Under the pieces are notes generated by a model, which ran no database searches, was not told the DNA's origin, and worked only from the letters and a program-made list of their open reading frames with translations. Shown one piece after another: positions 7,548-25,497 of a stretch of 64,000 nucleotides of DNA. The DNA is from Streptomyces sp. NBC_01445 (lineage in GTDB: Bacteria; Actinomycetota; Actinomycetes; Streptomycetales; Streptomycetaceae), in the NCBI RefSeq assembly GCF_035918235.1, contig NZ_CP109485.1, positions 7,045,001 through 7,109,000 on the forward strand, in the 5' to 3' direction. The first letter of the stretch is position 1; each line of letters opens with the position of its first letter. Both the position numbers and the translations under genes were made by a program.

Positions 7548-7866
7548 TAGGAGACGGGGCGAAGTAGTCCCACCGGCGCTCAGCCGCGTACGAGACAGGG
7601 CCGGAGACAGCGAAGTCCCACCGGCCGTGAGACGCCGACGAAACGGGAGGGGACGTGGGGGCATGTGCGCGCGCAGCCACCAGCACCACGTACAGGCAAT
7701 CAGCTAGCTGACGTGCACCCATAGAACAGCGAGCACGTACATGCCCCCGCGGCCCCGCACCCAAAAACGCACCTGACGAGCCCGAACCGACCCCGCACCC
7801 GAAATCGCACCGACCCCGCACCCGAAAACGCACCGGCCGAAGACAGTCGGCACCCGCCGGCGCACC
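7548..7866 (-). repeat. intergenic repeat element, copy A
   Basis: This fills the 372-bp gap between two convergent genes. Read on the minus strand it has three parts. First, two to three short GC-rich units of the type GGTGCGTTTTCGGGTGCGGG (7755-7866). Second, an 18-base imperfect inverted repeat (7654-7671 and 7734-7751) around a 62-base loop. Third, two tandem units of 48 bp beginning CCGGTGGGACT (at 7624 and 7576 reading leftward). The same arrangement recurs on the other strand at 25.05-25.50 kb with only about six mismatches over roughly 160 aligned core bases. Open frames within it are by-products of base composition. Function is unknown. Confidence 0.85.
7654..7751 (-). other. long stem-loop at the core of repeat element A
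   Basis: Arms CGTGGGGGCATGTGCGCG (7654-7671) and its imperfect complement (7734-7751) pair at 15 of 18 positions plus one G-U. The loop is 62 bases, the same length as in copy B. Inside the loop CAGCTA can pair with TGGCTG; copy B has CAGCCA at the same place, so the substitution (C-G to U-G) keeps the inner stem. It could be a structured RNA or a protein-binding DNA hairpin. Confidence 0.6.
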
Positions 7867-7905
7867 AGCACCCATCGCCCACCCATCAACCGCAAACCCC
7901 CACCC

Positions 7906-8508
7906 CTACCACCCCGCAGGCGGCGGCGAGGTCAGATGGTCCGCAAGACGGGACAGCCGATCACGGAAGCGCCGACGAGGCCCCCGGGCCGGGCCGCCGA
8001 CGGGATTCTCGCCCGCGGCCGCGCTGACCAGGTGCTGCGCCGTATCGAGGTCGAGATCGGGCCCGGGCGTGAGCGCCTCGTGGGCCATGGCGTGCAGATC
8101 ACGGTCGCCCGAGTCGATGGCCAGAACCGTGGCCCCCGCCCGCCGAGCGTCATGCACCCGCTCCAGCAACTCCTCACCCGGCGCCCCAGGCGCCACAACG
8201 AGCAGAGTCTCGCCCCGCCGGGCCGCCTCGATGCGCCCGAGCCCCACCGCAAGATGGGCCGGATCCCCGACCCCCGCCCGGTGCCGCACGAGCGTGGGCG
8301 ACAGCTCGGGCATCCCGGACCAGGCGGCCTCGTCCACAAGATGCGCCGCGAGATGCCACGGCTCGTACTCGGGCGTGCCGACGAGAAGCAGCCCGCCCCC
8401 ATGCGGCACGACGGAGGCCCGCAGCGCGCCCGCGAAGCGGCGCGCGGCGCCCAGCCACTCGGTTCCGGCGAGTACTTCCCGCAGCAGTGCGACCCGTACG
8501 GCGTCCAT
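7906..8508 (-). CDS. conserved protein of unknown function, possibly SIS-like fold
   Basis: 200 aa, Ala/Arg/Leu-rich, no signal peptide or membrane segment. Alternating segments such as GGLLLVGTPEYEPWHLAAHLVDEA and GETLLVVAPGAPGEELLERV, then an alpha/beta stretch ending TVLAIDSGD, look like a Rossmann-type or sugar-isomerase (SIS) fold. No diagnostic catalytic residue can be named. It is divergent from the sialidase-like gene (79 bp between starts), which would fit a sugar-phosphate role, but this is only positional. Confidence 0.7.
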   Translation of the reverse strand: MDAVRVALLREVLAGTEWLGAARRFAGALRASVVPHGGGLLLVGTPEYEPWHLAAHLVDEAAWSGMPELSPTLVRHRAGVGDPAHLAVGLGRIEAARRGETLLVVAPGAPGEELLERVHDARRAGATVLAIDSGDRDLHAMAHEALTPGPDLDLDTAQHLVSAAAGENPVGGPARGPRRRFRDRLSRLADHLTSPPPAGW

Positions 8509-8587
8509 GCCTGCGCATACTGCCTCAACAGTGAACTCGTCAGGCCGAGTTCACCGGGAATTCCCTCGGGGTGGGGAGGGATGGGGG

Positions 8588-9673
8588 GTGCTGACTGAGA
8601 CGTCTGTTCCCTTCCGCGCGGGGCGCGAGGGATACGCGAGCTTCCGGATCCCCGCAGCTGTCACGACACGCTCCGGCGTGCTGCTCGCGTTCTGCGAGGG
8701 GCGAGTGGGATCGAGGGAGGACTACGGGAACATCGACGTGGTCCTGAAGAGATCCACGGACGGCGGCCGGACCTGGGACCCGCTCCAGGTGGTGGCGGCG
8801 AACGGCAACGACCTGGCGGGAAACCCGGCGCCGGTGGTCCTGGACACGGGACGGGTCCTGATCGTCCACGTAAGGAACGCGGCAGGGGCAACAGAAACGG
8901 CGATCAGACGGGGCGAGGTCGAGCCCGAGGACGGACGCCGAGTCTGGGTGCAGCACAGCGACGACGAGGGCCTGACCTGGTCGGCGCCCAGGGAGATCAC
9001 AGCACAGGCAAAGAACAAGAACTGGCGCTGGTACGCCACAGGCCCGGGCCACGCGATCCAGACACACAGCGGACGAGTGGTGGTACCGGCCAACCACTCC
9101 CTCCCGCCCGCCGGAGGCGACACCGGCACGGAGGGAAAGTACGACGGAGGCCACTGCCTGCTGAGCGACGACAGGGGCAGGACCTGGCGGCTCGGTTACG
9201 TGGACGACCACCCGGACGGCTATGTGAATGTGAACGAGACGACCGCGGTCGAACTGCCGGACGGGCGGCTGTACTTCAACGCCCGCAACGACTCGCCCGC
9301 GCCGGGCACAAGGGCGGACGCGACGTCGGAGGACGGCGGCGAGAGCCTGGTCAAGGCATTCCGCCCGCAGGCGGGCCTGGTGGGCCCGGTGGTGGAGGGG
9401 AGCCTGCTGAGGCTGGGGGAGGTGCTGCTGTTCGCAGGTCCGGCGGACCCTGGGTTCAGGGCGCTGATGAGCGTGCGGGCGAGCGAGGACGAGGGTGTGA
9501 CATGGAGGGTGGCCCACAGGGTGGACGGCCTGCCTGCGGCCTACTCCGACCTGGTGCAGCTCGACCCCGAGGCGGTCGGGCTGCTGTACGAGACGGGAGA
9601 CTTCAGCGCGTACGAGACGATCACGTTCAGGCGGATCCCGGTCGCCGCGCTGCTGGGCCGTACGCCTGAGTAA
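8588..9673 (+). CDS. exo-alpha-sialidase-like hydrolase (GH33-type beta-propeller), no signal peptide
   Basis: 361 aa from GTG 8588, after a purine-rich GGGGAGGGATGGGG. The sialidase FRIP motif (SFRIPAA, about residue 17-20) supplies one of the Arg triad. Four Asp-box repeats (SxDxGxTW: STDGGRTW, SDDEGLTW, SDDRGRTW, SEDEGVTW) are spread along a six-bladed propeller. It lacks an export signal, so it is predicted to be cytosolic, unlike secreted streptomycete sialidases. It could act on imported sialosides or another glycoside. The next gene starts 9 bp downstream, so the two are probably cotranscribed. Confidence 0.85.
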   Translation: MLTETSVPFRAGREGYASFRIPAAVTTRSGVLLAFCEGRVGSREDYGNIDVVLKRSTDGGRTWDPLQVVAANGNDLAGNPAPVVLDTGRVLIVHVRNAAGATETAIRRGEVEPEDGRRVWVQHSDDEGLTWSAPREITAQAKNKNWRWYATGPGHAIQTHSGRVVVPANHSLPPAGGDTGTEGKYDGGHCLLSDDRGRTWRLGYVDDHPDGYVNVNETTAVELPDGRLYFNARNDSPAPGTRADATSEDGGESLVKAFRPQAGLVGPVVEGSLLRLGEVLLFAGPADPGFRALMSVRASEDEGVTWRVAHRVDGLPAAYSDLVQLDPEAVGLLYETGDFSAYETITFRRIPVAALLGRTPE

Positions 9674-9682
9674 GGTCACCGT

Positions 9683-10387
9683 ATGACCTCTACGGACAGT
9701 GTGCAGAAGGCCCCCGCGAAGGACCCCTGGGACCTCCCCGACGTATCGGGGCTGGTGGTAGGCGTGCTGGGAGGCACGGGCGACCAGGGCCGCGGGCTCG
9801 CCTACCGGCTGGCGAGGGCCGGCCAGAAGGTGATCATCGGATCCCGCGCGGCGGAGCGCGCGCAGGCGGCAGCGGATGAGCTGGGCCTGGGCGTCGAGGG
9901 CGCGGACAACGCGGAGTGTGCGCGCCGCAGCGACATCGTGATCGTGGCGGTGCCGTGGGAGGGCCACGGCAAGACGCTGGAATCGCTGCGCGAGGACCTC
10001 GCGGGCAAGCTCGTGGTCGACTGCGTCAACCCGCTGGGCTTCGACAAGAAGGGCGCGTACGCGCTGAAGCCGGAGGAGGGCAGCGCGGCGGAGCAGGCCG
10101 CGGCGCTGCTGCCGGACTCGCGGGTGACGGCGGCGTTCCACCACCTGTCGGCCGTGCTCCTCCAGGACGAGGCGATCGACGAGATCGACACGGACGTGAT
10201 GGTGCTGGGCGAGGAGCGGGCGGACACGGAGATCGTCCAGGCGCTGGCGGGCCGCATTCCGGGCATGCGGGGAGTCTTCGCGGGCCGGCTGCGCAACGCG
10301 CACCAGGTGGAGTCGCTGGTCGCGAACCTGATCTCGGTGAACCGCCGCTACAAGGCACATGCGGGCCTGCGGGTCACCGACGTCTGA
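9683..10387 (+). CDS. npdG: NADPH-dependent F420 reductase
   Basis: 234 aa. The N-terminal Rossmann motif GVLGGTGDQGRGLAYRLARAG (about residues 27-47) and the GSR turn that recognises NADPH phosphate are typical of the Fno/NpdG family. The domain then runs through VAVPWEGHGKTL and DCVNPLGFDKKG to an F420-binding C-terminal half ending AHQVESLVANLISVNRRYK. It transfers hydride between NADPH and coenzyme F420 in the cytosol, supplying F420H2 for reductases and antibiotic tailoring enzymes. It lies 9 bp after the sialidase-like gene. Confidence 0.92.
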   Translation: MTSTDSVQKAPAKDPWDLPDVSGLVVGVLGGTGDQGRGLAYRLARAGQKVIIGSRAAERAQAAADELGLGVEGADNAECARRSDIVIVAVPWEGHGKTLESLREDLAGKLVVDCVNPLGFDKKGAYALKPEEGSAAEQAAALLPDSRVTAAFHHLSAVLLQDEAIDEIDTDVMVLGEERADTEIVQALAGRIPGMRGVFAGRLRNAHQVESLVANLISVNRRYKAHAGLRVTDV

Positions 10388-10475
10388 CCGGCGCGCGTCA
10401 CCGCGGTGCGGCCGCGGAAGGGCATGGGGGACACTGGTCGGCGTACAACTCTCCGTCCGACAGGAGCCGACCCCC

Positions 10476-10673
10476 ATGCCCCGCCTCGCTCTGTACGCCC
10501 TAGTCGTCTGCGTCCTCTCGACGGCCGCAGCCGTGGTCGCCTTCGTGCAGGGCAGCCTGCTCGGCATCGTCTGGGTCCTGCTCGCGGGCCTCACCTCGAA
10601 CATGGCCTGGTACTACGCGCGCCGGGCCAAGGCCGAGAAGAAGGCGAACGCGGCGGTCGCGCCTACTGCGTGA
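10476..10673 (+). CDS. small two-helix membrane protein
   Basis: 65 aa from ATG 10476, with CAGGAG 7 bp upstream. Two hydrophobic segments (about residues 4-23 and 26-47) are followed by a basic tail (YYARRAKAEKKANA). No known motif. Its last 11 bases overlap the end of the convergent site-2 protease gene. Confidence 0.65.
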   Translation: MPRLALYALVVCVLSTAAAVVAFVQGSLLGIVWVLLAGLTSNMAWYYARRAKAEKKANAAVAPTA

Positions 10674-11463
10674 CGATGGGGATCTCAGGGGTGCCCTGCC
10701 AGAAGCGGTAGAACTCCTGACCCCAGTAGGTGTCCCACTCGGTGACACCCAGGGAGCGCAGAATCGCGTCGATGGCGTCGAAGAACACGTGGTTCACCTC
10801 CGGGATCCACAGGATGCCGAACACGGCGAGCAGCCCGAACGGAGCGAACGGCTCCACCTGCCGCCGGAAGCTCTGGGACAGCCACGGCTCGATGACGCCG
10901 TAGCCGTCCAGGCCCGGGATCGGCAGGAAGTTCAGGATCGCCGCGGTCACCTGGAGCAGGGCCAGGAAGCCGAGCGCGTAGCGGAATGTGTCCGGCACCC
11001 CGTTCAGCGCGTCCAGCCAGAACGGCGCCGTGCACACGACGGCGAACAGGACGTTGGTCAGCGGGCCCGCCGCCGAGATGAGGCTGTGCCGCCAGCGGCC
11101 CCGGATCCGGCCCCGCTCGATGAAGACGGCGCCGCCGGGCAGACCGATCCCGCCCATGATCACAAAGATGACGGGCAGCACGATGCTGAGCAGGGCGTGC
11201 GTGTACTTCAGCGGGTTCAGGGTCAGATAGCCCTTCGCGCCGATGGAGATGTCGCCGCTGTGCAGGGCCGTGCGGGCGTGGGCGTACTCGTGCAGACAGA
11301 GCGAGACGATCCAGGCGCCCGTCACGAACAGGAAGACGGCGATGCCGGGCTGCGCGGCGAAGTCCGTCCACACCGCCCAGCCGGCGACGGCGGTGACGGC
11401 GGCGATACCGAGGAAGACGGGGCTGATCCTGCGATCGCTGCGACGGGTGGCGGCGGTGGTCAT
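10663..11463 (-). CDS. site-2 protease family (M50) membrane metallopeptidase
   Basis: 266 aa with about six membrane segments. The zinc motif HEYAH (His58, Glu59, His62) lies in a transmembrane helix, and NFLPIPGLDG (Asp187 as third ligand) in a later helix, the two hallmarks of S2P-type intramembrane proteases. ATG 11463 is chosen because upstream sequence lies in a non-coding region. The compact form without PDZ domain resembles the actinobacterial Rip-like or YdjG-like branch. Substrate unknown; no anti-sigma factor gene is adjacent. Confidence 0.9.
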   Translation of the reverse strand: MTTAATRRSDRRISPVFLGIAAVTAVAGWAVWTDFAAQPGIAVFLFVTGAWIVSLCLHEYAHARTALHSGDISIGAKGYLTLNPLKYTHALLSIVLPVIFVIMGGIGLPGGAVFIERGRIRGRWRHSLISAAGPLTNVLFAVVCTAPFWLDALNGVPDTFRYALGFLALLQVTAAILNFLPIPGLDGYGVIEPWLSQSFRRQVEPFAPFGLLAVFGILWIPEVNHVFFDAIDAILRSLGVTEWDTYWGQEFYRFWQGTPEIPIVTQ

Positions 11464-11712
11464 GGAGGAGGGCTCCCGGGGTGCGTGCGGCCTGGTGCGG
11501 TGCTGGGGCGACGGGCTGACCGTATCGGTGGTGCGGTGTGGGGGGAACGTGCCGGGGCAGGCCGCAGGTTCCGCGACACCGGCGAGAGCGCGCCCGTTGC
11601 CCCCGCCCTGACGGATATCTGCCCGCCGCCGAAAGACCTGCTCCACACCCCGGATCGCCCTCGCGCCGAAACCCGGGCGCGGGCCGGGGGCCGGTTTGGG
11701 GACAATGGGCCG

Positions 11713-14700
11713 GTGCGCTACCGCATTCTCGGCTCCACGCAGGCACTCCGCGACGACGGCACGACCGTCCCCGTAGGCGGGGCGCGCCTGCGTGCCCTGC
11801 TGACCGTGCTCGCGCTGCGCCCCGGCCGTACCGTCCCTCCGCAGGTGCTCACCGACGAGGTCTGGGGCGCCGATCCGCCCGCGGACGCGTCCGGCGCGCT
11901 CCAGGCGCTCGTGGGCCGGCTGCGCAGGGCGATCGGCGCCGACGCGGTGCACTCGCTCGACGGCGGCTACCGGCTGTCCGCCACCTCCGAGGACATCGAC
12001 CTGTTCCGCTTCGAGCGGCTCGTGAAGGACGGCGTACAGGCGCTGGCCGACGGCGACCCCGGCAAGTCGGCGGCCGTCCTCGACGACGCGCTCTCCCTGT
12101 GGCGCGGCCCCGCGCTGGCCGATCTGCCGGACCGCTCGGCGGACGCCGTCCGCTGGGAGGCGCTCCACCTCGAATCCCGGCGCACACGGCTCTCCGCTTC
12201 GCTCGCGCTGGGCAGGGCCGAGTCCGTACTGCCCGAACTGACCGCGCTGTGCGACGCGCATCCGCTCGACGAGCCGCTCCAGGCGCTGCGGCTGCGCGCC
12301 CTGCGCGACGCGGGCCGCACCGCCGAGGCGCTGGCGGCCTACGAGCGGGTACGGGTCGAGCTCGCGGAGCGGCTGGGAACGGACCCGGGCCCGGAACTGC
12401 GCGCACTGCACGCCGACCTGCTGACGCCGCGCGCCCCCGCCCCCACCGCCTCCGCCGAAAGACCCACCACCCCGGTCAGGGCACCCGCCCACACAGGCAA
12501 CCTCCGCGCCCGGCTCACCTCCTTCGTGGGGCGCGCCGGCGACATCGGGGCGATTCGTGAGGACCTCGGGCGGGTGCGGCTCGTGACGCTGCTCGGGCCT
12601 GGCGGCGCCGGAAAGACCCGGCTGTCCCAGGAGGCCGCCGAGAGCATGGATCTGCCGGACGGCGTATGGCTGGCCGAGCTCGCGCCCATCGAGGACCCGG
12701 ACGCCGTCCCGGAGGCCGTCGTCACGGCGCTCGGGGCCCGCGAGACCGTGCTGCGCGGTGCCGGCGCCGAGGAGCTGCGGGTCGCGTCCGACCGGCACGG
12801 CGAGGACCCGCTCGTACGCCTCACCGAGCACTGCGCGCACCGCCGCATGCTGCTGATCCTCGACAACTGCGAGCACGTGATCGAGGCCGCCGCCCGCCTC
12901 GCCGAGCAGCTGCTCAGCCAGTGCCCCGGCGTGACGGTTCTCGCCACGAGTCGCGAACCCCTGGGCGTACCGGGCGAGTTGCTGCACCCGGTGGAGCCGC
13001 TGCCGGAGCCTTTCGCCCTGCGCCTGTTCGGCGAGCGGGGCGCCGCCGTGCGGCCCGGGTTCCGGGTCGAGGACGACGAGCGGGCCGCGGCCGAGATCTG
13101 TCGGCGCCTCGACGGACTGCCCCTCGCCATCGAGCTCGCCGCCGCCCGGCTGCGGATGCTCACGCCTCGCCAGATCGCCGACCGCCTCGACGACCGCTTC
13201 CGCCTGCTCACCTCGGGCGCCCGCACCGTCCTGCCCCGCCAGCAGACGCTGAGGGCCGTCGTCGACTGGTCCTGGGACCTCCTCGACGAGGAGGAGCGGA
13301 CCGTCCTGCGCCGGCTGTCGGTCTTCAGCGGCGGCTGCGACCTCGCCGCCGCCGAGGCGGTGTGTGGCCCCGGCGCCCTCGACGCGATCGGCTCGCTCGT
13401 GGACAAGTCCCTTGTCGTGGCGGCCCCTTGGGGCGGCGACGAGGCTGAGCACGAAGAGCACGAAGAGCACGAAGACCACGGAGATTACGGGGACGGCACC
13501 GACGGCGAGGGCCGCGACCAGGCCGGCGCCATGCGCTACCGCCTCCTGGAGACCGTCGCCGAGTACGCGGGTGACCGGCTCGACGAGGCCGGTGACCGGG
13601 CGGGCGCCGAGCGCGCGCACCTCACGTACTACCGCGAACTGGCCCGCACCACCGACCCGCAGCTGCGCGGCCACGGTCAGCGCGCGGCCGTCGCCCGCCT
13701 GGAACGCGAATACGAGAACCTGCGCACCGCCCTGCGGCACGCCGTCGCCGCGCGGGACGAGCAGGAGACGCTCTCCCTGGTGCTCTCGCTGGCCTGGTTC
13801 TGGCAGATGCGCGACCTGCGCCTCGACGCCCGCAACTGGTCGCGCGAGGCCACCGCGCTCGGCCCCGACCCGTTCACCCCGCCCGCCGACCCCGCGCCCC
13901 CGCTCTACGAGCGCTGCACCGACGCCCCGCCGCCGTTCGGCCCCGAACTCCTCGTGGAGGCGCGGCGCGGGGTGCACCTGCTCCGCCTCGCCTACATGGA
14001 CATGGAGATGGAGACCTGGCAGACCGAGGAGGGCGGCGCGAAGCTGCGCGCGATCGCGCAGGCGTACCGCCCGGGCCTCCCGCAGACCTGCCGCCCGCCG
14101 GGCAACCTCTGGTTCTACGCGGTGATGATGAGCGGCGACATGGAGGCGCTGTGGAACCTCGCCGACGTCACGGTGCGGACCTGCCGCAAACTCGGCTACA
14201 CCTGGGAGCTCGCCCTCACCCTCCAGCTGCGGGCGAACATCCTCGCCAACCGCAGCGACTGGGCGGGCGACGCGGTCCGGGACGCGGACGAGTCCCTCGA
14301 ACTGTTCACCCGGCTCGGCGACCGGTGGGGCGTCGCCGAGGCGCTGTCCGCGCGCGGCGAGGCCCATGAGCGCAGCGGCGCGTACGCCGCGGCGGCCGAG
14401 GACTACGCCGCCGCCATCGAGGGCGCCGAACGCCTCGGCGCGCAGGCGCAGGTGGCCATCCTGAACGCGCGGCTCGGGCAGGCCCTCATCGAGGTCGGTG
14501 ACGGCGAGCGCGGCGAGGAACTGCTGCGCGGCATCCTCGACCCCGGCAAGCGCCATGCGAACGAGGCCTGGCCCGCCGCCCGCATGTTCCTGGCCGGACG
14601 GTACGGAGCCACCGGCCGTGTGGCCGAGGCGCGTGAGCAACTGCGGCTCCTCCAGGACGAGTTCAAGGCGATGAGCTTCGTCGTCTTCCGGGGCTTCATC

Positions 14701-15090
14701 GTCGGGATGAAGGCCTGGCTCGACTCGGAGGACGGCCTCGCGGAGGAAGCCCTCGCCGGTGTCGTCGAGGCCCTGGAGCTGGCGACCGACCCGCTGGCCC
14801 TGGTGATCGCCCCGCACATGCCCGCCATGCATCTGGTGACCGGCGCCCGCGCCCTGAGCCTGAGCGGAGACCCGGCCGACGCCCGCGACGCCGCCCGCCT
14901 CGTGGGCTCCGCCGACGGACAGCTTCCGTCCCGGCACGTGCGGTCCTACCTGGAGCGCGACGCCCACACGTCCGCCGAGGCCGCGATCCGTGAGGTCATC
15001 GGCGACCGTGCGTACGAGGCCGCGTACGCCGAAGGCGGCGACCTGTCTCTCGACGAGGCCGCCGCCCTACTGGGACGCGAACGCGGTTGA
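11713..15090 (+). CDS. AfsR/BTAD-type transcriptional regulator with AAA-like ATPase and TPR-like region
   Basis: 1125 aa from GTG 11713 (VRYRILGSTQAL). Domains in order: winged-helix OmpR/PhoB-like DNA-binding domain (about 1-90), bacterial transcriptional activator domain (about 95-245), a short Pro/Ala linker, an NB-ARC-type ATPase with Walker A GPGGAGKT (295-302) and LLILDNCEHV Walker B, then helical TPR-like repeats to the C-terminus. This is the large SARP/AfsR architecture that often controls secondary metabolism. An unusual His/Glu tract (EAEHEEHEEHEDH, about residue 577-590) is encoded by a 9-bp microrepeat. It converges on the ABC transporter genes; target genes cannot be read from the sequence. 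Confidence 0.92.
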   Translation: MRYRILGSTQALRDDGTTVPVGGARLRALLTVLALRPGRTVPPQVLTDEVWGADPPADASGALQALVGRLRRAIGADAVHSLDGGYRLSATSEDIDLFRFERLVKDGVQALADGDPGKSAAVLDDALSLWRGPALADLPDRSADAVRWEALHLESRRTRLSASLALGRAESVLPELTALCDAHPLDEPLQALRLRALRDAGRTAEALAAYERVRVELAERLGTDPGPELRALHADLLTPRAPAPTASAERPTTPVRAPAHTGNLRARLTSFVGRAGDIGAIREDLGRVRLVTLLGPGGAGKTRLSQEAAESMDLPDGVWLAELAPIEDPDAVPEAVVTALGARETVLRGAGAEELRVASDRHGEDPLVRLTEHCAHRRMLLILDNCEHVIEAAARLAEQLLSQCPGVTVLATSREPLGVPGELLHPVEPLPEPFALRLFGERGAAVRPGFRVEDDERAAAEICRRLDGLPLAIELAAARLRMLTPRQIADRLDDRFRLLTSGARTVLPRQQTLRAVVDWSWDLLDEEERTVLRRLSVFSGGCDLAAAEAVCGPGALDAIGSLVDKSLVVAAPWGGDEAEHEEHEEHEDHGDYGDGTDGEGRDQAGAMRYRLLETVAEYAGDRLDEAGDRAGAERAHLTYYRELARTTDPQLRGHGQRAAVARLEREYENLRTALRHAVAARDEQETLSLVLSLAWFWQMRDLRLDARNWSREATALGPDPFTPPADPAPPLYERCTDAPPPFGPELLVEARRGVHLLRLAYMDMEMETWQTEEGGAKLRAIAQAYRPGLPQTCRPPGNLWFYAVMMSGDMEALWNLADVTVRTCRKLGYTWELALTLQLRANILANRSDWAGDAVRDADESLELFTRLGDRWGVAEALSARGEAHERSGAYAAAAEDYAAAIEGAERLGAQAQVAILNARLGQALIEVGDGERGEELLRGILDPGKRHANEAWPAARMFLAGRYGATGRVAEAREQLRLLQDEFKAMSFVVFRGFIVGMKAWLDSEDGLAEEALAGVVEALELATDPLALVIAPHMPAMHLVTGARALSLSGDPADARDAARLVGSADGQLPSRHVRSYLERDAHTSAEAAIREVIGDRAYEAAYAEGGDLSLDEAAALLGRERG

Positions 15091-15110
15091 ACCACCTGTC
15101 CGGGTGAACG

Positions 15111-16972: not shown

Positions 16973-17155
16973 GACGTACAAGGTGCCAGGTGCCACCGAC
17001 AATCCACCGACAGGCGGCCGACAGCCCCGTGTACGGCACCTACAGAACGGCGACGGACGGGCAGTTCAGAAGGGCGGCGGAACGGCAGCAGCCCGCCGAC
17101 GGGGGAAGATCGGCGAGCCGCTGTGGTGCCACTTTGGTTCAGGTGGTGGTCCGGG

Positions 17156-18031
17156 TCAGTGGACCGAGTGCTCCTCCTGGGGGAACGTTCCGCCGACCAC
17201 GTCCTGTGCGAACGCCTTCGCCGCCTCGCCCATGACGCCGCGCAGATCCGCGTACTGCTTCACGAAGCGCGGCATCTTGCCGCCGGTGAGGCCGAGCATG
17301 TCGGTCCACACGAGGACCTGGGCGTCGCACTCGGCGCCCGCGCCGATGCCGACGGTCGGGATGTTCAGGGACCGGGTGACCTCGGCGGCCAGTTCGGCCG
17401 GGACCAGTTCGAGGACGACGGCGAAGGCGCCGGCGTCCTGGGCGGCCTTGGCGTCACGCAGCAGTCGGTGCGCGTCCTCGTCGCCGCGGCCCTGGACGCG
17501 GTACCCCATGGTATTCACGGACTGCGGGGTGAGGCCCAGGTGGGACATGACCGGGATGCCGGACTGCACGAGCAGCTCGGTCTGGGCCAGCGAGCGCTCG
17601 CCGCCCTCCAGCTTCACGGCGCCGACCCCGGCCTCCTTGACCAGACGCGTCGCGGACCGCAGGGCCTGTACGGGGCCCTCCTGGTACGAGCCGAAGGGGA
17701 GGTCACCGACGATGAGGGCGCGCTTGGTGCCCCGTACGACGGCGGCCGAGAGCATCGTCATCTCGTCGAGGGTGACGGGCACGGTGGTCTCGTACCCGAG
17801 GTGACAGTTGCCCGCGGAGTCGCCGACGAGCATGACCGGGATGCCGGCCTCGTCGAAGACGGACGCGGTCATCGCGTCGTAGGCCGTGAGCATGGGCCAC
17901 TTCTCGCCGCGTTCCTTGGCGAGCGTGATGTCGCGCACCGTGATGCGCCGGTTGCTCTTGCCCCCGTACAGCGCCTTGCTGCCGCTGTTGCTGCTGTCGG
18001 GGTTGTTCTGGGCAGCCGAAAGCTGCGTCAT
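17156..18031 (-). CDS. panB: 3-methyl-2-oxobutanoate hydroxymethyltransferase
   Basis: 291 aa. First committed step of pantothenate (CoA) synthesis: adds a hydroxymethyl group from 5,10-methylene-THF to alpha-ketoisovalerate. PanB motifs are present: LTAYDAMTA, the metal-binding VGDSAGNCHLGYETTVPVTLDEM region, DLPFGSYQ, KLEGG, and the C-terminal GIGAGAECDAQVLVWTDMLGL. The N-terminal 20 residues are an Asn/Ser-rich extension common in Streptomyces. It stands alone. Confidence 0.96.
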   Translation of the reverse strand: MTQLSAAQNNPDSSNSGSKALYGGKSNRRITVRDITLAKERGEKWPMLTAYDAMTASVFDEAGIPVMLVGDSAGNCHLGYETTVPVTLDEMTMLSAAVVRGTKRALIVGDLPFGSYQEGPVQALRSATRLVKEAGVGAVKLEGGERSLAQTELLVQSGIPVMSHLGLTPQSVNTMGYRVQGRGDEDAHRLLRDAKAAQDAGAFAVVLELVPAELAAEVTRSLNIPTVGIGAGAECDAQVLVWTDMLGLTGGKMPRFVKQYADLRGVMGEAAKAFAQDVVGGTFPQEEHSVH

Positions 18032-18193
18032 CGCAACGGCTCCTTCTGTTGTCTCGAGGCACCCTTACGGCGTCCCCGGATCCCCTCCATGGTGGCACCG
18101 CGTGCCGAGGAATGGCTAGGGGGGTGGCCGCCGATCGGGTCACCCCGTGAGCGGGTCGCCCGTCGGGTTCGTAAAGTCTTCCTAAGGATTCCA

Positions 18194-18212
18194 ATACGAG
18201 ACGGTCTCGTAT
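18194..18212. promoter_or_regulatory. perfect 19-bp palindrome, probable TetR-family operator
   Basis: ATACGAGAC-G-GTCTCGTAT is a perfect 9+1+9 inverted repeat centred 34 bp before the MFS start at 18237. Its size is typical of TetR-family operators, and a TetR gene lies immediately downstream of the MFS gene. The site would let that protein repress the efflux gene and, if cotranscribed, itself. Confidence 0.8.
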
Positions 18213-18236
18213 CGAAACTGCCCTAGGGTAAGTCCC

Positions 18237-19829
18237 ATGACCACTCCTGCCGTTCCCGAATCGCCGCGCATACCGGAGGCTGTGCACCGCCGCCGATGGG
18301 CGATCCTCGGCGTGCTGATGCTCAGCCTGCTGATAGTCGTGCTCGACAACTCCATCCTGAACGTCGCGATCAAGACGATCTCGACCCCGCCCCCCGTGGG
18401 CCTCGGAGCCACGCAGGGCGAGCTGGAGTGGGCGATCAACGCCTACACGCTGGTCTTCGCCGGACTTCTCTTCACCGCGGGTCTGCTCGGTGACCGGCTC
18501 GGGCGCAAGAAGGTGCTGGTCTTCGGCCTCGTCGTCTTCGGCCTCGGCTCCGCCCTCGCCGCCGAGTCCGGCTCGCCGGTCCAGCTCATCATCTTCCGGG
18601 CGATCATGGGCATCGGCGCCGCCTTCGTGATGCCGGCGACGCTGGCCATCCTCATGAACGTCTTCGAGCGGGACGAGCAGCCCAAGGCCATCGGCATCTG
18701 GGCGGGCGGCGTCGGCATCGCCATCGCGATCGGCCCCATCACCGGCGGCCTGCTCCTCGACCACTTCTGGTGGGGCTCGGTCTTCCTGGTCAACGTGCCG
18801 ATCGTGATCATCGCGGTCGTCCTGATGCTGGCTCTCGTGCCGGACTCCCGCGACCCCAAGCCCGGCCGTATCGACCTGGTGGGCGTCGCCCTCTCCGTCG
18901 TCGGCCTCGTCCTGCTCGTCTACGGCATCATCAAGGGCGGTCAGCTCGCCGACTTCACGGACCCGGCGGTCCTGCTGACCATCGCGGCCGGACTCGTCGT
19001 CCTCGTCGGCTTCGTCCTGTACGAGAAGCGCAGCGACCACCCGTCGATCGACATCACGTACTTCAAGAACAAGGTGTTCTCCGCGGCGATCGCCGCCATC
19101 GCGCTCGTCTTCTTCGCGCTGATGGGCGTCACCTTCTTCTCGGTCTTCTACACCCAGAGCGTGCGCGGCTACTCGCCGCTGCAGACCGGCCTCCTGATGC
19201 TGCCGCTCGCCGCCGCCCAGCTGATCTTCGCGCCGCGGGCCCGGCTCGTCGTCGACCGCTTCGGAGTGCGCGCCACGACGACCGGCGGCCTGGTGATCCT
19301 CGCCGCGATGCTCGCCGCGTTCACGATCCTCGACGCGGACACGCCCATCTGGATCCTGGAAGTCATCTTCTTCCTCATGGGTATGGGCATGGCGCACGTC
19401 ATGACCCCCACCAGCGTCGTCATCATGCAGGCCCTGCCGCGCGAGAAGGCGGGCTCCGCGTCCGCGCTGAGCAACACGTTCCGGCAGGTCGGCGGCGCCC
19501 TGGGCATCGCCGTACTCGGTTCCGTGCTGTCCACCGCGTACCGCAGCGGCATCGAGGACAAGCTCGGCCTGCTGCCCGCCGGACTGCGGCACACGGCGGG
19601 CGAGTCCATCGAGGCCACCATCGGCGTGGCGGCGAAGCTCGGCCCGCGCGGCGACGCGCTGGTCGGCGCGGCCAACGACTCCTTCCTGCACGCCATGCAC
19701 GTGACCGCCGTGTGCGGGGCCGGTATCGCGCTGGTGAGCGCCGTCGTCACCATCCTGTTCCTGCCGGGGCGCCCGCCGCGGACCCCGGCCGAGGAGAGCA
19801 CGGAGGAGACCGTCGGGGCGGGTCGCTGA
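18237..19829 (+). CDS. DHA2-family (14-helix) MFS drug efflux transporter
   Basis: 530 aa with about 14 membrane helices. Motif [10 protein letters not shown] in the first helix corresponds to the LDxTVxNVAL signature of the EmrB/QacA (DHA2) group; motif [14 protein letters not shown] lies between helices 2 and 3, and a proton-antiporter motif C-like Gly-Pro segment ([18 protein letters not shown]) is in helix 5. It probably exports cationic or hydrophobic drugs in exchange for protons. It is regulated through the palindrome at 18194 by the downstream TetR protein. Confidence 0.93.
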
Positions 19830-19908
19830 CCTGCACCCGTCGTGGCAGGCCAGTGACCGGCTGAGACAATCGCCGGTACGCAAGGCTGCGGGAAGGCGGA
19901 GAGGCGGA

Positions 19909-20517
19909 GTGGTCGTGGACGTGGATGCGGGGCGCGCGGTGCGGGGGCGCCCGCGCAGCGAGGCCGTCGAGCGGGCCATCGTCGAGGGCGTCCTCAAGCT
20001 GATCGAGGACGGCGTCCCGCTCACCGACCTGTCCATCGAGCGGATCGCCCGCACCGCCGGCGTCGGCAAGGCGACCATCTACCGGCGCTGGGCCGGCAAG
20101 GAGGAGCTCTTCGTCGAGGTCCTGCGCATCATGGAGGAGCCCGATCCCGAGCTGCCGGGCACCTCGGTGCGCGACGACCTGATCAGCCTCCTGGAGCACC
20201 TGCGCAGGCGCGGCGTCTCCCTTCGCTCCTCGGCCCTGCTGCACAACGTCTTCGCGCAGATGAAGAGCCTGCCGAAGCTCTGGGACGCGTACCACGACAC
20301 CGTGATCGAGCCGCGCCGCCGCGTCATGTTCGACGTGCTGCGGCGCGGCGTCGAGAACGGTGAGCTGCGCGCCGACGTCGACATAGAGCTCATCAACGAC
20401 TTCATCGTCGGGCCGATGCTGCTGCGCACGATCATCCGGCCCGACGCGCCGCTCGCCGACGACCTCTCCGAGCAGATCGTCGACTGCGCACTCGCCGGGC
20501 TGCGGCCACAGGACTGA
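19909..20517 (+). CDS. TetR-family regulator, probable repressor of the upstream MFS gene
   Basis: 202 aa from GTG 19909 after GGCGGAGAGGCGGA. The TetR helix-turn-helix is clear: DLSIERIARTAGVGKATIYRRWAGKEELF-type segment at about residues 44-72. The C-terminal ligand domain resembles the TetR_C_11/AefR-like group (LINDFIVGPMLLRTII). It follows the MFS gene by 79 bp in the same orientation and probably binds the 18194 palindrome. The inducing ligand is unknown. Confidence 0.92.
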   Translation: MVVDVDAGRAVRGRPRSEAVERAIVEGVLKLIEDGVPLTDLSIERIARTAGVGKATIYRRWAGKEELFVEVLRIMEEPDPELPGTSVRDDLISLLEHLRRRGVSLRSSALLHNVFAQMKSLPKLWDAYHDTVIEPRRRVMFDVLRRGVENGELRADVDIELINDFIVGPMLLRTIIRPDAPLADDLSEQIVDCALAGLRPQD

Positions 20518-20715
20518 AGCTGCGGGGCCACCGGACTGAATGTGCGCGTTTCGTCACAGAGGCCCCATGCGTGCCGCCGAACCGGAACCCCGCGCGCCAC
20601 TGTGCTCGTCCTCGTGCCCGTACGGCCGTCGTGGACGGCGAGGAGGGCGCCGATCATCCCCTAGGGTTTCAGGGCGAGGTCGGTGTGCACGGCAGGGCAG
20701 TGAGGCGACGACGGT

Positions 20716-21747
20716 ATGGCGCAGGGGTTCAGGACGGAAACGGGTGGCGGCGGCTCGGGGCACCGGCCTTCCAGAGACCCGCTGCGCCGCCTGACCGGCG
20801 GGTGGCGCGGTGACCGGGGGATCTGGCGCCGCGGGGTGGTCCTCGCGGTACTGGCCGTTCTGGTCGCGCTCGTCATGCTCTTCCACGCGCAGATCCCCAA
20901 CACCCTCGGAAACCTGGGCTCCCTCACCGAGACCTTCCTTCCCTGGCTCGGCGTGTTCGTGCCCGTCCTGCTCGTCCTGGCCGTCGTACGGAAATCCGCG
21001 ACGGCCCTGATCGCGGTCCTGGTCCCGGCCATCGTCTGGCTCAACCTCTTCGGCGGGCTCCTCACCGACAAGACCGCCGGCGGCGGCGACCTGACCGTCG
21101 CCACGCACAACGTCAACGCGGAGAACCCCGACCCGACCGGCACCGCCGACGCCATCGCCGCCTCCGGGGCGCAGGTCGTCGCCCTGGAGGAGCTGACGGC
21201 CGACGCCGTTCCCGTCTACGGGAAGGCGCTCGCGAAGACGTATCCGTACCACTCCGTCGCCGGCACCGTCGGGCTGTGGAGCAAGTACCCGCTGAGCGGG
21301 ACGCGGCCCGTCGACATCCAGCTCGGCTGGACGCGCGCCATGCGCACCACCGTCGCCACGCCCCAGGGCGATGTCGCCGTGTTCGTCGCGCACCTGCCGT
21401 CGGTCCGGGTCAAGATCCACGCCGGATTCACCGCAAGCCAGCGCGACACCTCCGCCGACGCGCTCGGCGAGGCCATCTCCGACGAGACGCTCGACAAGGT
21501 CATCCTGCTGGGCGACCTCAACGGCACGATGAACGACCGTGCGCTGAACGGCGTGACGTCCCAGATGCGGTCCACGCAGGGTGCCGCCGGCAGTGGGTTC
21601 GGGTTCAGCTGGCCGGCCTCGTTCCCCATGGCCCGTATCGACCAGATCATGGTCAAGGGTGTCGAGCCGGTCACATCGTGGACGCTGCCCGAGACCGGCA
21701 GCGATCATCTGCCGATCGCGGCGAAGGTTGATCTCACCCGGTCCTGA
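20716..21747 (+). CDS. membrane-anchored endonuclease/exonuclease/phosphatase (EEP) family protein
   Basis: 343 aa. Three hydrophobic helices (about 41-60, 72-95 and 98-115) anchor it, followed by an extracytoplasmic EEP domain. Catalytic-site segments are in place: THNV (metal/phosphate Asn), ALEELT (metal Glu), GDLNGTMND (general-acid Asp and Asn) and SDHLPI (Asp-His pair). EEP proteins of this topology hydrolyse phosphodiesters in nucleic acids or phospholipid head groups; the substrate cannot be told. Confidence 0.88.
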   Translation: MAQGFRTETGGGGSGHRPSRDPLRRLTGGWRGDRGIWRRGVVLAVLAVLVALVMLFHAQIPNTLGNLGSLTETFLPWLGVFVPVLLVLAVVRKSATALIAVLVPAIVWLNLFGGLLTDKTAGGGDLTVATHNVNAENPDPTGTADAIAASGAQVVALEELTADAVPVYGKALAKTYPYHSVAGTVGLWSKYPLSGTRPVDIQLGWTRAMRTTVATPQGDVAVFVAHLPSVRVKIHAGFTASQRDTSADALGEAISDETLDKVILLGDLNGTMNDRALNGVTSQMRSTQGAAGSGFGFSWPASFPMARIDQIMVKGVEPVTSWTLPETGSDHLPIAAKVDLTRS

Positions 21748-21898
21748 CGTCGGCGTTCGCTCCCCACACCCGTTGTTGACTCGGTGGAAACCGGGGCCTC
21801 ACCTCACGGGATACTTGGCACGGGAGAGTTTGTTCCGCGCGTAAACTTACAAATTCCCGCGTCTCCCGCCCGTCTTCCCGTGGAAGGTCCCCTTTTTC

Positions 21899-23158
21899 AT
21901 GCCCCTGGCCCTGCTCGCCCTCGCCGTGGGCGCCTTCGGCATCGGCACCACCGAGTTCGTGATGATGGGCCTCCTGCCCAACGTCGCCGACGATCTGCAC
22001 ATCTCCATCCCCTCCGCCGGCCACCTCGTCTCCGCGTACGCCCTCGGCGTCGTCATCGGCGCCCCGCTCCTGGCCGCCCTCACCGCGCGCATGCCCCGCC
22101 GACGCGTCCTCGTCGGGCTCATGGTGCTCTTCGTCGCCGGTAACGCCGTGTCCGCCGCCGCGCCCGACTATCACCTGCTCATGGCCGCGCGCTTCGTCAG
22201 CGGGCTGCCGCACGGCGCCTTCTTCGGCGTCGGCGCCGTCGTGGCCACCTCGCTCGTCGCGCCCGAGCGCAAGGCCCGCTCGGTGTCCCTGATGTTCCTC
22301 GGCCTCACCGTCGCCAACGTCATCGGCGTCCCCATCGCCACGCTCATGGGCCAGCAGCTCGGCTGGCGCGCCACGTTCCTCGCCGTCAGCGCCATCGGGC
22401 TCGCCGCGATAGCCGCACTCCTGCTCCTCGTCCCCGCCGACCACGGCCACGGCGAGAGCGGCGGGCTGCGCGGTGAGCTCAAGGCGCTCGGCTCCCTGCC
22501 CGTGTGGCTCTCCCTCGGCACCACCGTCGCCGGGTTCGGCGCGCTCTTCGCCGCGTACAGCTATGTCACGCCGATGCTCACCGGCACCGCCGGGTTCGCC
22601 GAGGCGAGCGTCACGCTGCTCCTCGCCCTGTTCGGCGTCGGCGCCACCGCCGGGAATCTGCTCGGCGGGCGGCTCGCCGATCGCTCCCTGCGCGGGACTC
22701 TGTTCGGCGGGCTCGTCTCGCTCGTTGTGGTGCTTGCGCTGTTCCCTGTGCTGATGCGGGCCGAGTGGAGTGCCGGGGTCGCCGTCGTGCTGCTCGGTAT
22801 GGCTGCCTTCACCACCGGGTCCCCGCTTCAGCTCATGGTCATGGAGAAGGCCTCGGCCGCACCCTCCCTCGCCTCCTCCGCCAACCAGGCCGCCTTCAAC
22901 CTCGCCAACGCCGGCGGCGCCTGGATCGGCGGGCTCGCCCTCGCCGCCGGGTTCGGGCTTACGTCCCCCGCGGTCGCCGGGGCCGCGCTCGCCGTCCTCG
23001 GGATCGGGGTGGCCGGGGTTGCCTATGGGGTCGACCTGCGTCGGTCCCGGGGCGCTGCCCCTTCCGCCGCGACGGGGCACGGGCTCCTCGTGGCCTCGCA
23101 TCTGCCCGATGCCGTGTCTCCGGCTCAGGACGCCGGGGAGCCCACTCGTCGTCGGTGA
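21899..23158 (+). CDS. AraJ/chloramphenicol-resistance-type MFS transporter (DHA1, 12 helices)
   Basis: 419 aa, 12 helices. It begins almost at the first helix (MPLALLALAVGAFGIGTTEFVMMGLLP), and the GTTEFVMMG signature is characteristic of the AraJ/CmlR group. Motif A-like MPRRRVLVGL lies after helix 2. The C-terminal 35 residues are a loose Pro/Ala-rich tail. Likely substrates are amphenicols or sugars/arabinosides; specificity is not visible. The 150-bp upstream gap contains a weak inverted repeat (21827-21847). Confidence 0.9.
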   Translation: MPLALLALAVGAFGIGTTEFVMMGLLPNVADDLHISIPSAGHLVSAYALGVVIGAPLLAALTARMPRRRVLVGLMVLFVAGNAVSAAAPDYHLLMAARFVSGLPHGAFFGVGAVVATSLVAPERKARSVSLMFLGLTVANVIGVPIATLMGQQLGWRATFLAVSAIGLAAIAALLLLVPADHGHGESGGLRGELKALGSLPVWLSLGTTVAGFGALFAAYSYVTPMLTGTAGFAEASVTLLLALFGVGATAGNLLGGRLADRSLRGTLFGGLVSLVVVLALFPVLMRAEWSAGVAVVLLGMAAFTTGSPLQLMVMEKASAAPSLASSANQAAFNLANAGGAWIGGLALAAGFGLTSPAVAGAALAVLGIGVAGVAYGVDLRRSRGAAPSAATGHGLLVASHLPDAVSPAQDAGEPTRRR

Positions 23159-23175
23159 TGTGACGGGTGGGCTCC
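23129..23175 (+). terminator. possible weak terminator or shared 3' hairpin
   Basis: A 9-bp perfect stem GGAGCCCAC/GTGGGCTCC (23137-23145 and 23167-23175) has a 21-base loop and overlaps the MFS stop codon. The loop is long and there is no T-run, so the call is weak. It lies between the convergent MFS and nadE genes. Confidence 0.35.
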
Positions 23176-23215
23176 GGGGCTTGGGCTTGGGGGTCGGGGG
23201 CTGGGGCGGTGACTG

Positions 23216-24970
23216 CTACGCCGACTCCCGCCACCTGTTCGTGATCGGCAGACGGCGGTCCTTGCCGAAGCCCTTTGCCGAGATCTTCGTGCCCGGCGGG
23301 TATTGGCGCCTCTTGTACTCCGCCGTGTCCACCATCCGCAGTGTCCTCGTCACCAGGTCCGCGTCGAACCCGGCCGCCACAATCGCGTCCGCGCCCCTGT
23401 CCCGGTCCACGTACAGCTCCAGGATCGCGTCCAGCACCGGGTAGTCCGGCAGCGAGTCCGTGTCCACCTGGTCCGGGCGCAGCTCCGCGCTCGGCGGCTT
23501 CGTGATCGAGTTCTCCGGGATCGGGGGAGTCTGGCCGCGCTCCGCCGCCGCCCGGTTGCGCCACTCTGCCAGCCGGAAGACCGACGTCTTGTACACGTCC
23601 TTGATCGGGCCGTACGCGCCGACCGAGTCGCCGTACAGCGTCGAATAGCCCACCGCCAGCTCGGACTTGTTGCCCGGCGCGAGCACGATGTGGCCCTCCT
23701 GGTTGGACACCGCCATCAGCATCGTGCCGCGCAGCCTCGACTGGAGGTTCTCCTCCGCGAGGCCCGTCAGGCCCAGCGACCCCATGTATGCGTCGAACAT
23801 CGGCTCGATCGGCACCGTACGGAAGTTGAGGCCCGTGCGGTCTGCCAGCTCCGCCGCGTCGCCCTTCGAGTGGTCCGAGGAGTACTTCGACGGCATCGCG
23901 ATGCCGTACACGTTCTGCGCGCCCAGCGCGTCGCACGCGATCGCCGCCGTCAGCGCCGAGTCGATGCCGCCCGACAGGCCGATCAGTACCGAGCGGAAGC
24001 CGTTCTTCGCGGCGTAGGCGCGCAGGCCCACGACCAGCGCCGAGTAGACCTCCTCGTCGTCGTCCAGGCGGTCCGCGTAGCCGCCCGTCAGCTCCGGCTC
24101 GTACGCCGGGACGTGATCCTCGGAGATCGTCAGGTGGTCGATGCGCAGGCCGTCGTCGACCGTCCCCGTCGGGGCCTCCGGCTTCGCCGCCGGGAGGTCC
24201 AGGTCCAGGACCACGCAACCCTCCGCGAACTGGGGCGCCCTGGCCACTACTTCGCCCGCGGCGTCCACCACGATCGAGTCGCCGTCGAAGACGAGCTCGT
24301 CCTGGCCGCCGATGGTGGCGACGTACGCCAGCGTGCAGCCCGCCTCCTGGGCGCGCTTGCGCACCAGGTCCAGGCGCGTGTCGTCCTTGTTCTGCTCGTA
24401 CGGCGACGCGTTGATCGAGATCAGGAGGCCGGCGCCGGCGCTTCGGGTGGCCGGGACGCGGCCGCCGTCCTGCCAGAGGTCCTCGCAGATGGCGAGCGCC
24501 ACGTCGATTCCGCGTACGCGGATCACGGGCATCGTGTCGCCCGGCACGAAGTAGCGGAACTCGTCGAAGACGCCGTAGTTCGGGAGGTGGTGCTTGGCGA
24601 ACGTCAGGGCGACCCGGCCGTTGTGCAGGACCGCGGCGGCGTTCTGGGGGGCGCCTGCGGGCTGGCCGTACTTGGGCTGGGCCTTCTCCGAGCGGTCCAG
24701 ATAGCCGACGATCACGGGGAGGTCGCCGTGGCCCTCGTCGGCGAGGCGCCTGGCCAGGGCGGTCAGTGCCTGGCGGGATGCCTCGACGAAGGACTCGCGC
24801 AGGGCGAGGTCCTCCACCGGGTAGCCGGTCAGGACCATCTCGGGGAACGCGACCAGGTGCGCTCCCTGTTCGGCGGAGTGCTTGGTCCAGCGGATGATCG
24901 CCTCGGCGTTCCCGGCGAGATCTCCGACGGTCGAGTCGATCTGATTCAGGGCGAGACGTAGTTGAGGCAC
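23216..24970 (-). CDS. nadE: glutamine-dependent NAD+ synthetase
   Basis: 584 aa from GTG 24970. Two domains: an N-terminal nitrilase-type glutaminase with the Glu44, Lys126, Cys162 triad (AFPEMVL, FAKHHLP, AICEDLW) and a C-terminal synthetase with the PP-loop SGGIDS (333-338). It amidates nicotinate adenine dinucleotide to NAD+ using glutamine-derived ammonia, the final step of NAD synthesis. Both active sites look intact. Repeat element B fills the gap upstream of its start. Confidence 0.96.
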   Translation of the reverse strand: MPQLRLALNQIDSTVGDLAGNAEAIIRWTKHSAEQGAHLVAFPEMVLTGYPVEDLALRESFVEASRQALTALARRLADEGHGDLPVIVGYLDRSEKAQPKYGQPAGAPQNAAAVLHNGRVALTFAKHHLPNYGVFDEFRYFVPGDTMPVIRVRGIDVALAICEDLWQDGGRVPATRSAGAGLLISINASPYEQNKDDTRLDLVRKRAQEAGCTLAYVATIGGQDELVFDGDSIVVDAAGEVVARAPQFAEGCVVLDLDLPAAKPEAPTGTVDDGLRIDHLTISEDHVPAYEPELTGGYADRLDDDEEVYSALVVGLRAYAAKNGFRSVLIGLSGGIDSALTAAIACDALGAQNVYGIAMPSKYSSDHSKGDAAELADRTGLNFRTVPIEPMFDAYMGSLGLTGLAEENLQSRLRGTMLMAVSNQEGHIVLAPGNKSELAVGYSTLYGDSVGAYGPIKDVYKTSVFRLAEWRNRAAAERGQTPPIPENSITKPPSAELRPDQVDTDSLPDYPVLDAILELYVDRDRGADAIVAAGFDADLVTRTLRMVDTAEYKRRQYPPGTKISAKGFGKDRRLPITNRWRESA

Positions 24971-25180
24971 GGGGTCAGTTTAATCGTCTGACTGACGCGA
25001 TGTCCTCTCGGACCGGGGAGTGGAGGGGGGTGGGTCTCGCTCGGTCCTCGGGTGCCGGCTGTCGTCGGGCGGTGTGTTGTCGGGTGCGGGCTCGGTGCGA
25101 TTTCGGGTGCGGGCTCGGCAGGTGCGTTTTTGGGTGCGGGCTCGGTGTGGGCTTGTCAGGTGCGTTTTTGGGTGCGGGGC

Positions 25181-25278
25181 CGCGGGGGCATGTACGTGCT
25201 CGCTGTTCTATGGGCTTTCGTCAGCCAGCTGATTGCCTGTGCGTGGTGCTGGTGGCTGCGCGCGCACATGCCCCCACG
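25181..25278 (+). other. long stem-loop at the core of repeat element B
   Basis: Arms CGCGGGGGCATGTACGTG (25181-25198) and CGCGCACATGCCCCCACG (25261-25278) pair at 15 of 18 positions plus one G-U. The loop is 62 bases. The inner CAGCCA/TGGCTG pairing is conserved relative to copy A. Confidence 0.6.
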
Positions 25279-25307
25279 TCCCCTCCCGTTTCGTCGGCGT
25301 CTCACGG

Positions 25308-25497
25308 CCGGTGGGACTTTGCTGTCTCCGGCCTGTCTCGTACGCGCCTGAGCGCCGGTGGGACTTCGCTGTCTCCGGCCCTGTCGCGTACGCGGCTGAG
25401 CGCCGGGGGACTTTGCTGTTTTCGGCCTGTCTCGCACGCGGCCGACTGCCCGGTGGGACTACCTGTCTTCGGTCAGGTCTCGTACGGCGCTCAGTGG
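25308..25497 (+). repeat. four 47-48 bp tandem repeats within element B
   Basis: Units start with CCGG at 25308, 25355, 25403 and 25450, each running CCGGTGGGACT..GCTGTCTCCGGCC..TCTCGTACGCG..TGAGCG with drift increasing toward the LacI gene. Copy A has only two such units. Copy-number difference suggests slippage or unequal recombination. Confidence 0.85.

Follow-up and report, generated by a model that had tools for sequence, protein, structure and literature searches.

What are the two nearly identical intergenic elements that bracket a 17.5-kb block of genes in Streptomyces sp. NBC_01445, and by what process might such copies come to be alike? The window analysed here is a stretch of 64,000 nucleotides (G000:C1:7045001-7109000) from this 11.5-Mb genome of two contigs. 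An initial annotation, made from the sequence letters, had read the elements as a structural, non-coding repeat whose two copies could also invert the block at 7.5-25.5 kb. The first part of this reading was borne out and the second was not.

Two opposite copies of a stem-loop element

We found copies A and B where they had been annotated, in opposite orientation, each with a stem-loop of ∼120 bases (7641-7762 on the minus strand and 25170-25291 on the plus strand) and with the flanking repeats that had been described. Both share one layout, GC-rich repeats being placed 5' of the stem-loop and 47-bp units 3' of it. The hairpin was confirmed, with arms longer than the 18 bases first proposed around a 62-base loop: each copy has 24-base arms and a 60-base loop. 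The core identity, estimated earlier by eye at ∼96%, was computed as 95% over the 176-bp core (92% over 274 bp). TRF placed tandem repeats to either side of the stem in copy B and 5' of it in copy A. The features are as follows.

7641..7762 (G000:C1:7052641-7052762), minus strand: copy A stem-loop core (covariance model R2, E 1.5e-15, own genome)
7733..7756, minus strand: copy A stem 5' arm (sequence; pairing counted on the family alignment)
7649..7672, minus strand: copy A stem 3' arm (sequence; pairing)
7786..7835, minus strand: copy A 5' GC-rich direct repeats, 23-bp period, 2.2 copies (TRF)
7548..7640, minus strand: copy A 3' tail, GCCGGTGGGACTTCGC-type units (sequence; local match to the copy B tail)
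25170..25291 (G000:C1:7070170-7070291), plus strand: copy B stem-loop core (covariance model R2, E 8.0e-15)
25176..25199, plus strand: copy B stem 5' arm (sequence; pairing)
25200..25259, plus strand: copy B apical region, 60 bases, variable between species (sequence and alignments)
25260..25283, plus strand: copy B stem 3' arm (sequence; pairing)
25068..25178, plus strand: copy B 5' GC-rich direct repeats, periods of 23-38 bp (TRF)
25307..25504, plus strand: copy B 3' tandem array, 47-bp unit, 4.2 copies (TRF)

Both copies lie between genes, in agreement with the initial annotation. Copy A occupies the gap between the convergent genes 7300-7533 (+) and 7906-8508 (-), the latter being gene-like in its mismatches against S. 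antnestii (17/8/68 by codon position). Copy B is located between the genes for an NAD synthase (23216-24970, -) and a LacI-type regulator (25491-26537, -). The reported lack of a transposase also held, as no transposase family was hit by Pfam among the 22 scanned immediate neighbours of the 11 own-genome copies (5 of the 22 gave no hit of any kind). These neighbours are ordinary chromosomal genes, among them DisA, biotin ligase, adenylate cyclase, NAD synthase and glycosidases. As an isolated RNA, copy B was only modestly more stable than shuffled sequences (z -1.9, equalled by 7 of 200); it is comparison that carries the case for structure.

A repeat family in Streptomyces and two related genera

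The repeat family is not confined to the window pair; it is spread over Streptomyces and two related genera. A DNA search of the own genome gave 10 places. Covariance models were built from 27 elements (R1) and from 35 diverse elements (R2), and R2 gave 11 own-genome copies, opposite-strand shadows apart (ten at E ≤1.4e-9 and one at 3.9e-4). R2 matched at least 70 of 199 Streptomyces genomes, and, at the level of the family, at least 31 of 150 genomes, belonging to 3 of 17 genera; R1 matched at least 43 of 295 genomes and the plain DNA search 13 of 199. These tallies include the own genome and the same-species genome, and carriers and copies from the multi-genome model searches are lower bounds, with 12-23 candidates scored per genome and stricter filters. 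The genus-wide search and the covariation check that had been proposed for the core were thus both positive (see below for the hairpin). Deeper scoring, opposite-strand shadows removed, gave 31 copies in genome G026, 25 in G189, 20 each in G197 and G007, and 18 in G140. Exact 24-base matches in the named genome collection came from three genomes, S. antnestii San01, Streptomyces sp. NBC_01446 and CB01635 (G161), the last being of the same species as the own genome.

No match to the element was obtained in plasmid records (two queries) or phage records (one query), which were searched in case it derived from a mobile element or an attachment site. One IMG/VR contig was matched; its copy, of another type, adjoins a bacterial adenylate cyclase that is 91% identical to the one beside site C. 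Phage or plasmid cargo was rejected on these results.

For placement and layout we used 63 copies from five genomes (12 of 18 in G140, 18 of 20 in G207, 2 of 13 in G417, 20 of 20 in G197 and 11 of 11 in the own genome). The tandem units are optional, the 5' array being present in 9 of the 63 copies and the 3' array in 17. Of those 17, 11 are in G140, and the 3' array was not confirmed as a general feature.

Paired changes in the stem and no conserved reading frame

Stem pairing was assessed on alignment A2 (diverse elements aligned by MAFFT without structure; 22 stem pairs counted). Of 770 cells, 97.4% were paired compared to at most 65.5% with the arms slid; two-sided changes numbered 66, compared to 20.6 in shuffles and at most 8 when slid; and the covariation score was 0.234, compared to at most 0.054 when slid, the structure being favoured over its slid versions in that it was derived from the same alignment. 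On four of five measures the observed value was reached by none of 500 shuffles, and on the fifth (pair types) by 28 of 500.

Certain details of the stem are kept as well. A T.G pair near the inner stem end was present in 31 of 35 cases in A2 and in 59 of 60 distinct arm pairs of a pattern-collected set; in the latter, the left inner arm was fixed by the pattern and at least 15 of 18 pairs were demanded, A2 being free of this conditioning. Beside this pair is a conserved asymmetric internal loop with T on the left and CTSC on the right. The next three pairs read CGG:CCG in 79 of 132 collected elements and CGC:GTG in 22, while 15 window-type elements carry an inserted G that leaves the register unclear and 16 others break the pairing. 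In G207 one apical pair is unbroken in all 18 copies, 14 of which have G-C and 4 C-G.

Covariation of this kind is expected for RNA and for single-stranded DNA alike and separates neither. That the core has been selected to fold as a long hairpin is, in our judgement, somewhat more probable than the converse, a grade that we give to the DNA-element reading (below) as a whole. As to the strand, folding energy and mispair type give opposite answers: RNA folding energies favoured the drawn strand in 55 of 63 copies, whereas the arm mispairs outside the fixed T.G pair (54 A/C vs 9 G/T) would favour the non-drawn strand.

Two classes of known structure were searched for and not supported. The window element had no Rfam match at the Rfam cut-offs (three animal families and a Rhizobiales sRNA appeared far below them), and five further loci were without a match up to E 0.1; a curated structured RNA was accordingly not supported. 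Nor was an intrinsic terminator, as no run of U directly follows the stem in the alignments read, where CCCC is succeeded mostly by TC/TT and then by GC-rich sequence.

A small protein gene could explain why the core is so often spanned by open frames: at least one is present on the drawn strand in 60 of the 63 copies, and the window copies lie within long mechanical frames. However, core lengths are distributed over all three classes modulo 3 (25, 17 and 21 copies), so that no frame is kept across the 63 copies, pairing is conserved, and in copy A the frame from an ATG in the left arm runs into a TAG. We therefore regard this explanation as scarcely credible, and protein-coding was rejected as a candidate. 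Together with the covarying stem and the intergenic placement, the spread of lengths over the three frames agrees with the non-coding, structural role proposed at the outset.

Most copies lie at gene 3' ends and tend to point with the replication fork

The 63 copies were found in 27 convergent, 31 codirectional and 5 divergent gaps, and of the 224 further gaps ≥150 bp long in these windows 11 were convergent, 124 codirectional and 89 divergent. Thus, 58 of 63 copies are in a gap with at least one gene 3' end, and divergent gaps are avoided. Genes were called with a home-made codon scorer, and copy L222 overlaps a called frame that we took as false. In the codirectional gaps, 20 elements point against the genes and 11 with them; copy A is filed among the 20 but is really convergent, the scorer having missed gene 7906-8508.

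The dnaA position was located in 24 genomes and orientation was counted in 22 of them (G280 and G284 left out). Copies tend to point with the replication fork, 208 of 302 doing so (p 5e-11); opposite-strand shadows were removed for this count, which takes the best 12 of 22 matches in G040, 15 of 16 in G049, 8 of 9 in G067 and 16 of 20 in G128 (two listed shadows). The assemblies of G007, G189, G118 and G346 are permuted, with the terminus assumed opposite dnaA, and leaving these four out gives 161 of 232. Among genes, 317 of 602 pointed with the fork in the windows of five genomes. By gap, copies followed the fork in 14 of 15 cases between two genes that run against it, in 10 of 16 between genes that run with it and in 19 of 27 in convergent gaps. 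The bias is strong in G140 (16 of 18), G189 (21 of 25) and G197 (16 of 20), and weak or absent in the own genome (7 of 11), G093 (3 of 10), G136 (4 of 9) and G049 (8 of 15). We also observed 24 pairs of adjacent copies less than 20 kb apart, the A/B pair included, vs 11.8 expected from random placement (17 of the 22 genomes; p 0.0025).

Shared sites with contents alike within genomes

Sites A-D of the own genome are orthologous to A-D in S. antnestii and in CB01635, and to A, C and D in NBC_01446. Further copies of site B were found in CB01635 and S. antnestii only, among the genomes searched; at 17 Streptomyces NAD synthase loci among 40 relatives, none had the element in the upstream bases fetched. 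The four S. antnestii cores differ mutually by 0-1 bases, and by 15-20 from those at the same sites in the relatives. Within the own genome, CB01635 and NBC_01446, the A-D cores are not grouped so clearly by genome, differing by 0-11 between sites, and by 4-17 between genomes at one site. The site B core equals that of site C in the own genome and that of site A in CB01635, two genomes of one species. Comparison of these two showed mismatches gathered in the element and its modules, with few in the flanks.

Similar relationships were seen over greater distances. G197 (together with G417, a close relative of it), G140 and G207 are distant from one another, and their comparison gave 8 orthologous-gap pairs at six gaps, with cores 66-73% identical; both neighbours were homologous in each, and rows of ∼30% protein identity (paralogues) and the one-sided matches L165/L203, L172/L205 and L200/L205 (cores 68-76%) were not counted. 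Mean core identity between sites within a genome was 90.9% in G197, 88.9% in G207 and 91.5% in G140. The own-genome cores average 72.7% identity, more than one type being present. In the close pair G197/G417, two same-site cores were 89 and 91% alike, which indicates that overwriting would be slow. Judged from these sequences, some sites persist between distant genomes while their contents are alike within many genomes, which suggests homogenisation, albeit incomplete.

Flips, gains and losses at orthologous gaps

Orthologous gaps differ in what they contain: a copy, half a copy, a reversed copy or none. At both window sites S. antnestii carries the element in reverse, with genes and flanks collinear, and the left flank at site A retains, by eye, a stretch like the old 3' tail. 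Among the distant orthologous gaps, the element was flipped at 2 of 6, again with collinear genes. Eight G197 sites were mapped in G417, where 2 are filled, 1 is half-deleted (L181, E 0.011, through loss of an arm) and 5 are empty, being either not yet filled or lost. The three empty sites that we aligned (L175, L177 and L179) gave no clear target duplication, and their flanks are altered.

Recombination between the inverted copies, which are 92% identical over 274 bp, could in principle invert the 17.5-kb block, as had been proposed. However, CB01635 and S. antnestii keep the order of the window at both sites and across the inner flanks of each; in NBC_01446 site B was not seen, and that genome is uninformative on this point. 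The own genome has one other close pair, whose members (4442473 and 4456531) point the same way; that A and B face opposite directions is therefore ordinary. We consider block inversion very improbable.

The search for a mobilising enzyme centred on the Y1/RAYT family (PF01797). No match at E ≤0.001 was obtained in 13 of 18 carrier genomes, and 2 of 14 genomes that gave no match to the element have the domain. RAYT/IS200 mobilisation was accordingly rejected, since these enzymes do not explain the family in most tested carriers. None of the best 45 neighbour-protein clusters listed resembles a mobile enzyme; each of them reflects an orthologous neighbourhood or a large paralogous family.

Possible explanations for the family

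We hypothesize, with slightly more confidence than doubt, that the family is a dispersed, non-coding and non-autonomous DNA repeat, whose core is selected as a long hairpin and which is copied by a putative trans-acting enzyme. The hairpin would form on the strand exposed as the lagging-strand template; for copies oriented with the fork, this is the drawn strand. The putative enzyme would recognise the folded hairpin and copy it into new gene-end sites, as well as into places already holding a copy. One sequence type may in this way overwrite the others in a genome, sometimes in the other orientation, and the flanking tandem units would be accessory and genome-dependent. Several observations are against this DNA-element reading: no enzyme was found and no target duplication was readable at the aligned empty sites, the fork bias is uneven among genomes and also fits an expressed RNA gene, and the homogenisation is incomplete and could come from gene conversion alone. 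A more specific proposal is that single-stranded hairpins home into resident copies during replication, in either orientation, by means of an enzyme of an undescribed kind, so that the arms co-change while the sites stay fixed; we think this doubtful.

The main rival is a structured RNA, which might stop transcription from both sides between convergent genes, serve in 3'-UTRs as a stability or RNase III element, or be a multicopy sRNA, the copies being kept alike by a shared partner. The covarying stem with its asymmetric internal loop (T vs CTSC) and kept T.G (G.U) pair, the placement at gene 3' ends and the fork co-orientation, which also fits expressed RNA genes, are all consistent with it. 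On the other hand, there is no Rfam match or T run after the stem, no promoter was evident by eye in the upstream modules, copies in codirectional gaps are more often against the genes (20 vs 11, the misfiled copy A among the 20), and flips within the same gap are hard to reconcile with a gene-linked RNA. We consider an RNA role possible, though clearly the less probable, and prefer the DNA-level reading. Another explanation is a passive palindrome: long hairpins would be broken in replication and repaired from other copies, and ectopic gene conversion would proceed without a dedicated enzyme. The within-core exchange seen when two same-species strains with nearly identical flanks are compared, the arm loss of L181 in G417 and the excess of close pairs (24 vs 11.8 expected, 17 genomes, p 0.0025) all point in this direction. 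This process alone leaves unexplained the sites that are occupied in just one of two close relatives, the flipped modules that include flanks outside the arms, and the pairing and internal loop conserved across diverged types. New or flipped copies would require more than gene conversion, and we hold a purely passive origin to be rather unlikely.

The family presents a paradox, in that some sites are older than the species and their contents younger. Identification of the enzyme or process would explain how repeats of ∼120 bases become alike over megabases. The repeat is countable, occurs in at least one third of the sampled Streptomyces genomes and comes with a covariance model that finds its copies, which can be markers for ectopic exchange and replication-strand effects in antibiotic producers.

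Comparison with known repeat families

Several known systems resemble the element in part. The attC sites of integrons are imperfect hairpins with a variable apical part and fixed asymmetric mispairs. Our element is similar in the way that it may work, having an imperfect hairpin, a variable apex and fixed asymmetric mispairs that could mark one strand, but no integrase or core boxes were noticed in the sequence. MITEs and IS200/IS605-derived elements are short, non-autonomous DNAs with inverted arms; they share these properties with the present family, as well as filled and empty sites between relatives. In contrast to them, no target duplication could be read here (three empty sites aligned) and the Y1 enzyme was not found in most tested carriers.

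The BOX elements of Streptococcus pneumoniae are modular, with hairpin-forming parts and a variable number of ∼45-bp units. A hairpin with repeated units of similar length (47 bp) is found here also; however, the hairpin is one unit, and the tandem units are outside it and optional (3' in 17 and 5' in 9 of 63 copies). REPINs are extragenic inverted repeats of ∼100 bp that form hairpins, have tens of copies and genome-specific types, and are associated with RAYT transposases; their constituent REPs are short and have a tetranucleotide guide. Our family shares several of these features (dispersed extragenic inverted repeats of ∼100 bp folding as a hairpin, tens of copies, genome-specific types). 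It differs in having arms of at least 24 bases, in the lack of a PF01797 match in 13 of 18 carriers and in the overwriting at orthologous sites.

The intergenic stem-loop families ERIC, NEMIS, Bor, Ype and Efa are enriched at gene 3' ends (PMC1590033), a placement that the present stem-loop repeats share; in that paper, Streptomyces is named once, in the reference list. Compared to these families as they are described there, replication orientation, flips and overwriting are traits of the Streptomyces family. Our coverage of the literature was small and we do not claim that the family is unreported. As far as shown, it is of a known kind, that of dispersed intergenic hairpin repeats, and it is unusual for its overwriting at fixed sites, its flips and its orientation relative to the fork.

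Variant forms and surroundings of the hairpin copies

At loci L029 and L043 of genome G163 the hairpin unit itself is arranged in tandem, with a spacing of 218–219 bases. The copy at position 1137601 of the NBC_01445 genome (L191:6001-6138) is 138 bases long compared to 122 bases, and its loop holds an 18-base insertion similar to the adjoining sequence. This insertion is absent from the orthologous copy in CB01635, a genome of the same species.

We also observed a hairpin on an IMG/VR contig (L225:7742-8229), where it is followed by 7.9 copies of a 45-bp unit. The hairpin and array are flanked by a run of small genes (SSB among them) on one side and by an adenylate cyclase on the other, the latter being 91% identical to the adenylate cyclase at site C, one of the element sites of NBC_01445. 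A second dispersed motif, GGGGCGCGGGGAACTGCGC, adjoins or brackets several hairpin copies in genomes G140 and G207 (flanks of the copies at L197, L206, L207, L215 and others).

Genome-wide Y1_Tnp matches and a tandem repeat in the window

Across the whole NBC_01445 genome, 27 matches to the transposase family Y1_Tnp (PF01797) were found, several with equal scores; the majority lie either towards the ends of the chromosome or on the second contig. The same-species genome has 9.

A separate tandem repeat lies within the window:

39315-40193, 129-bp unit, 6.8 copies, 87% matches (TRF)
39343-40227 (+), called frame overlapped by this array

The frame probably encodes a repeat protein.
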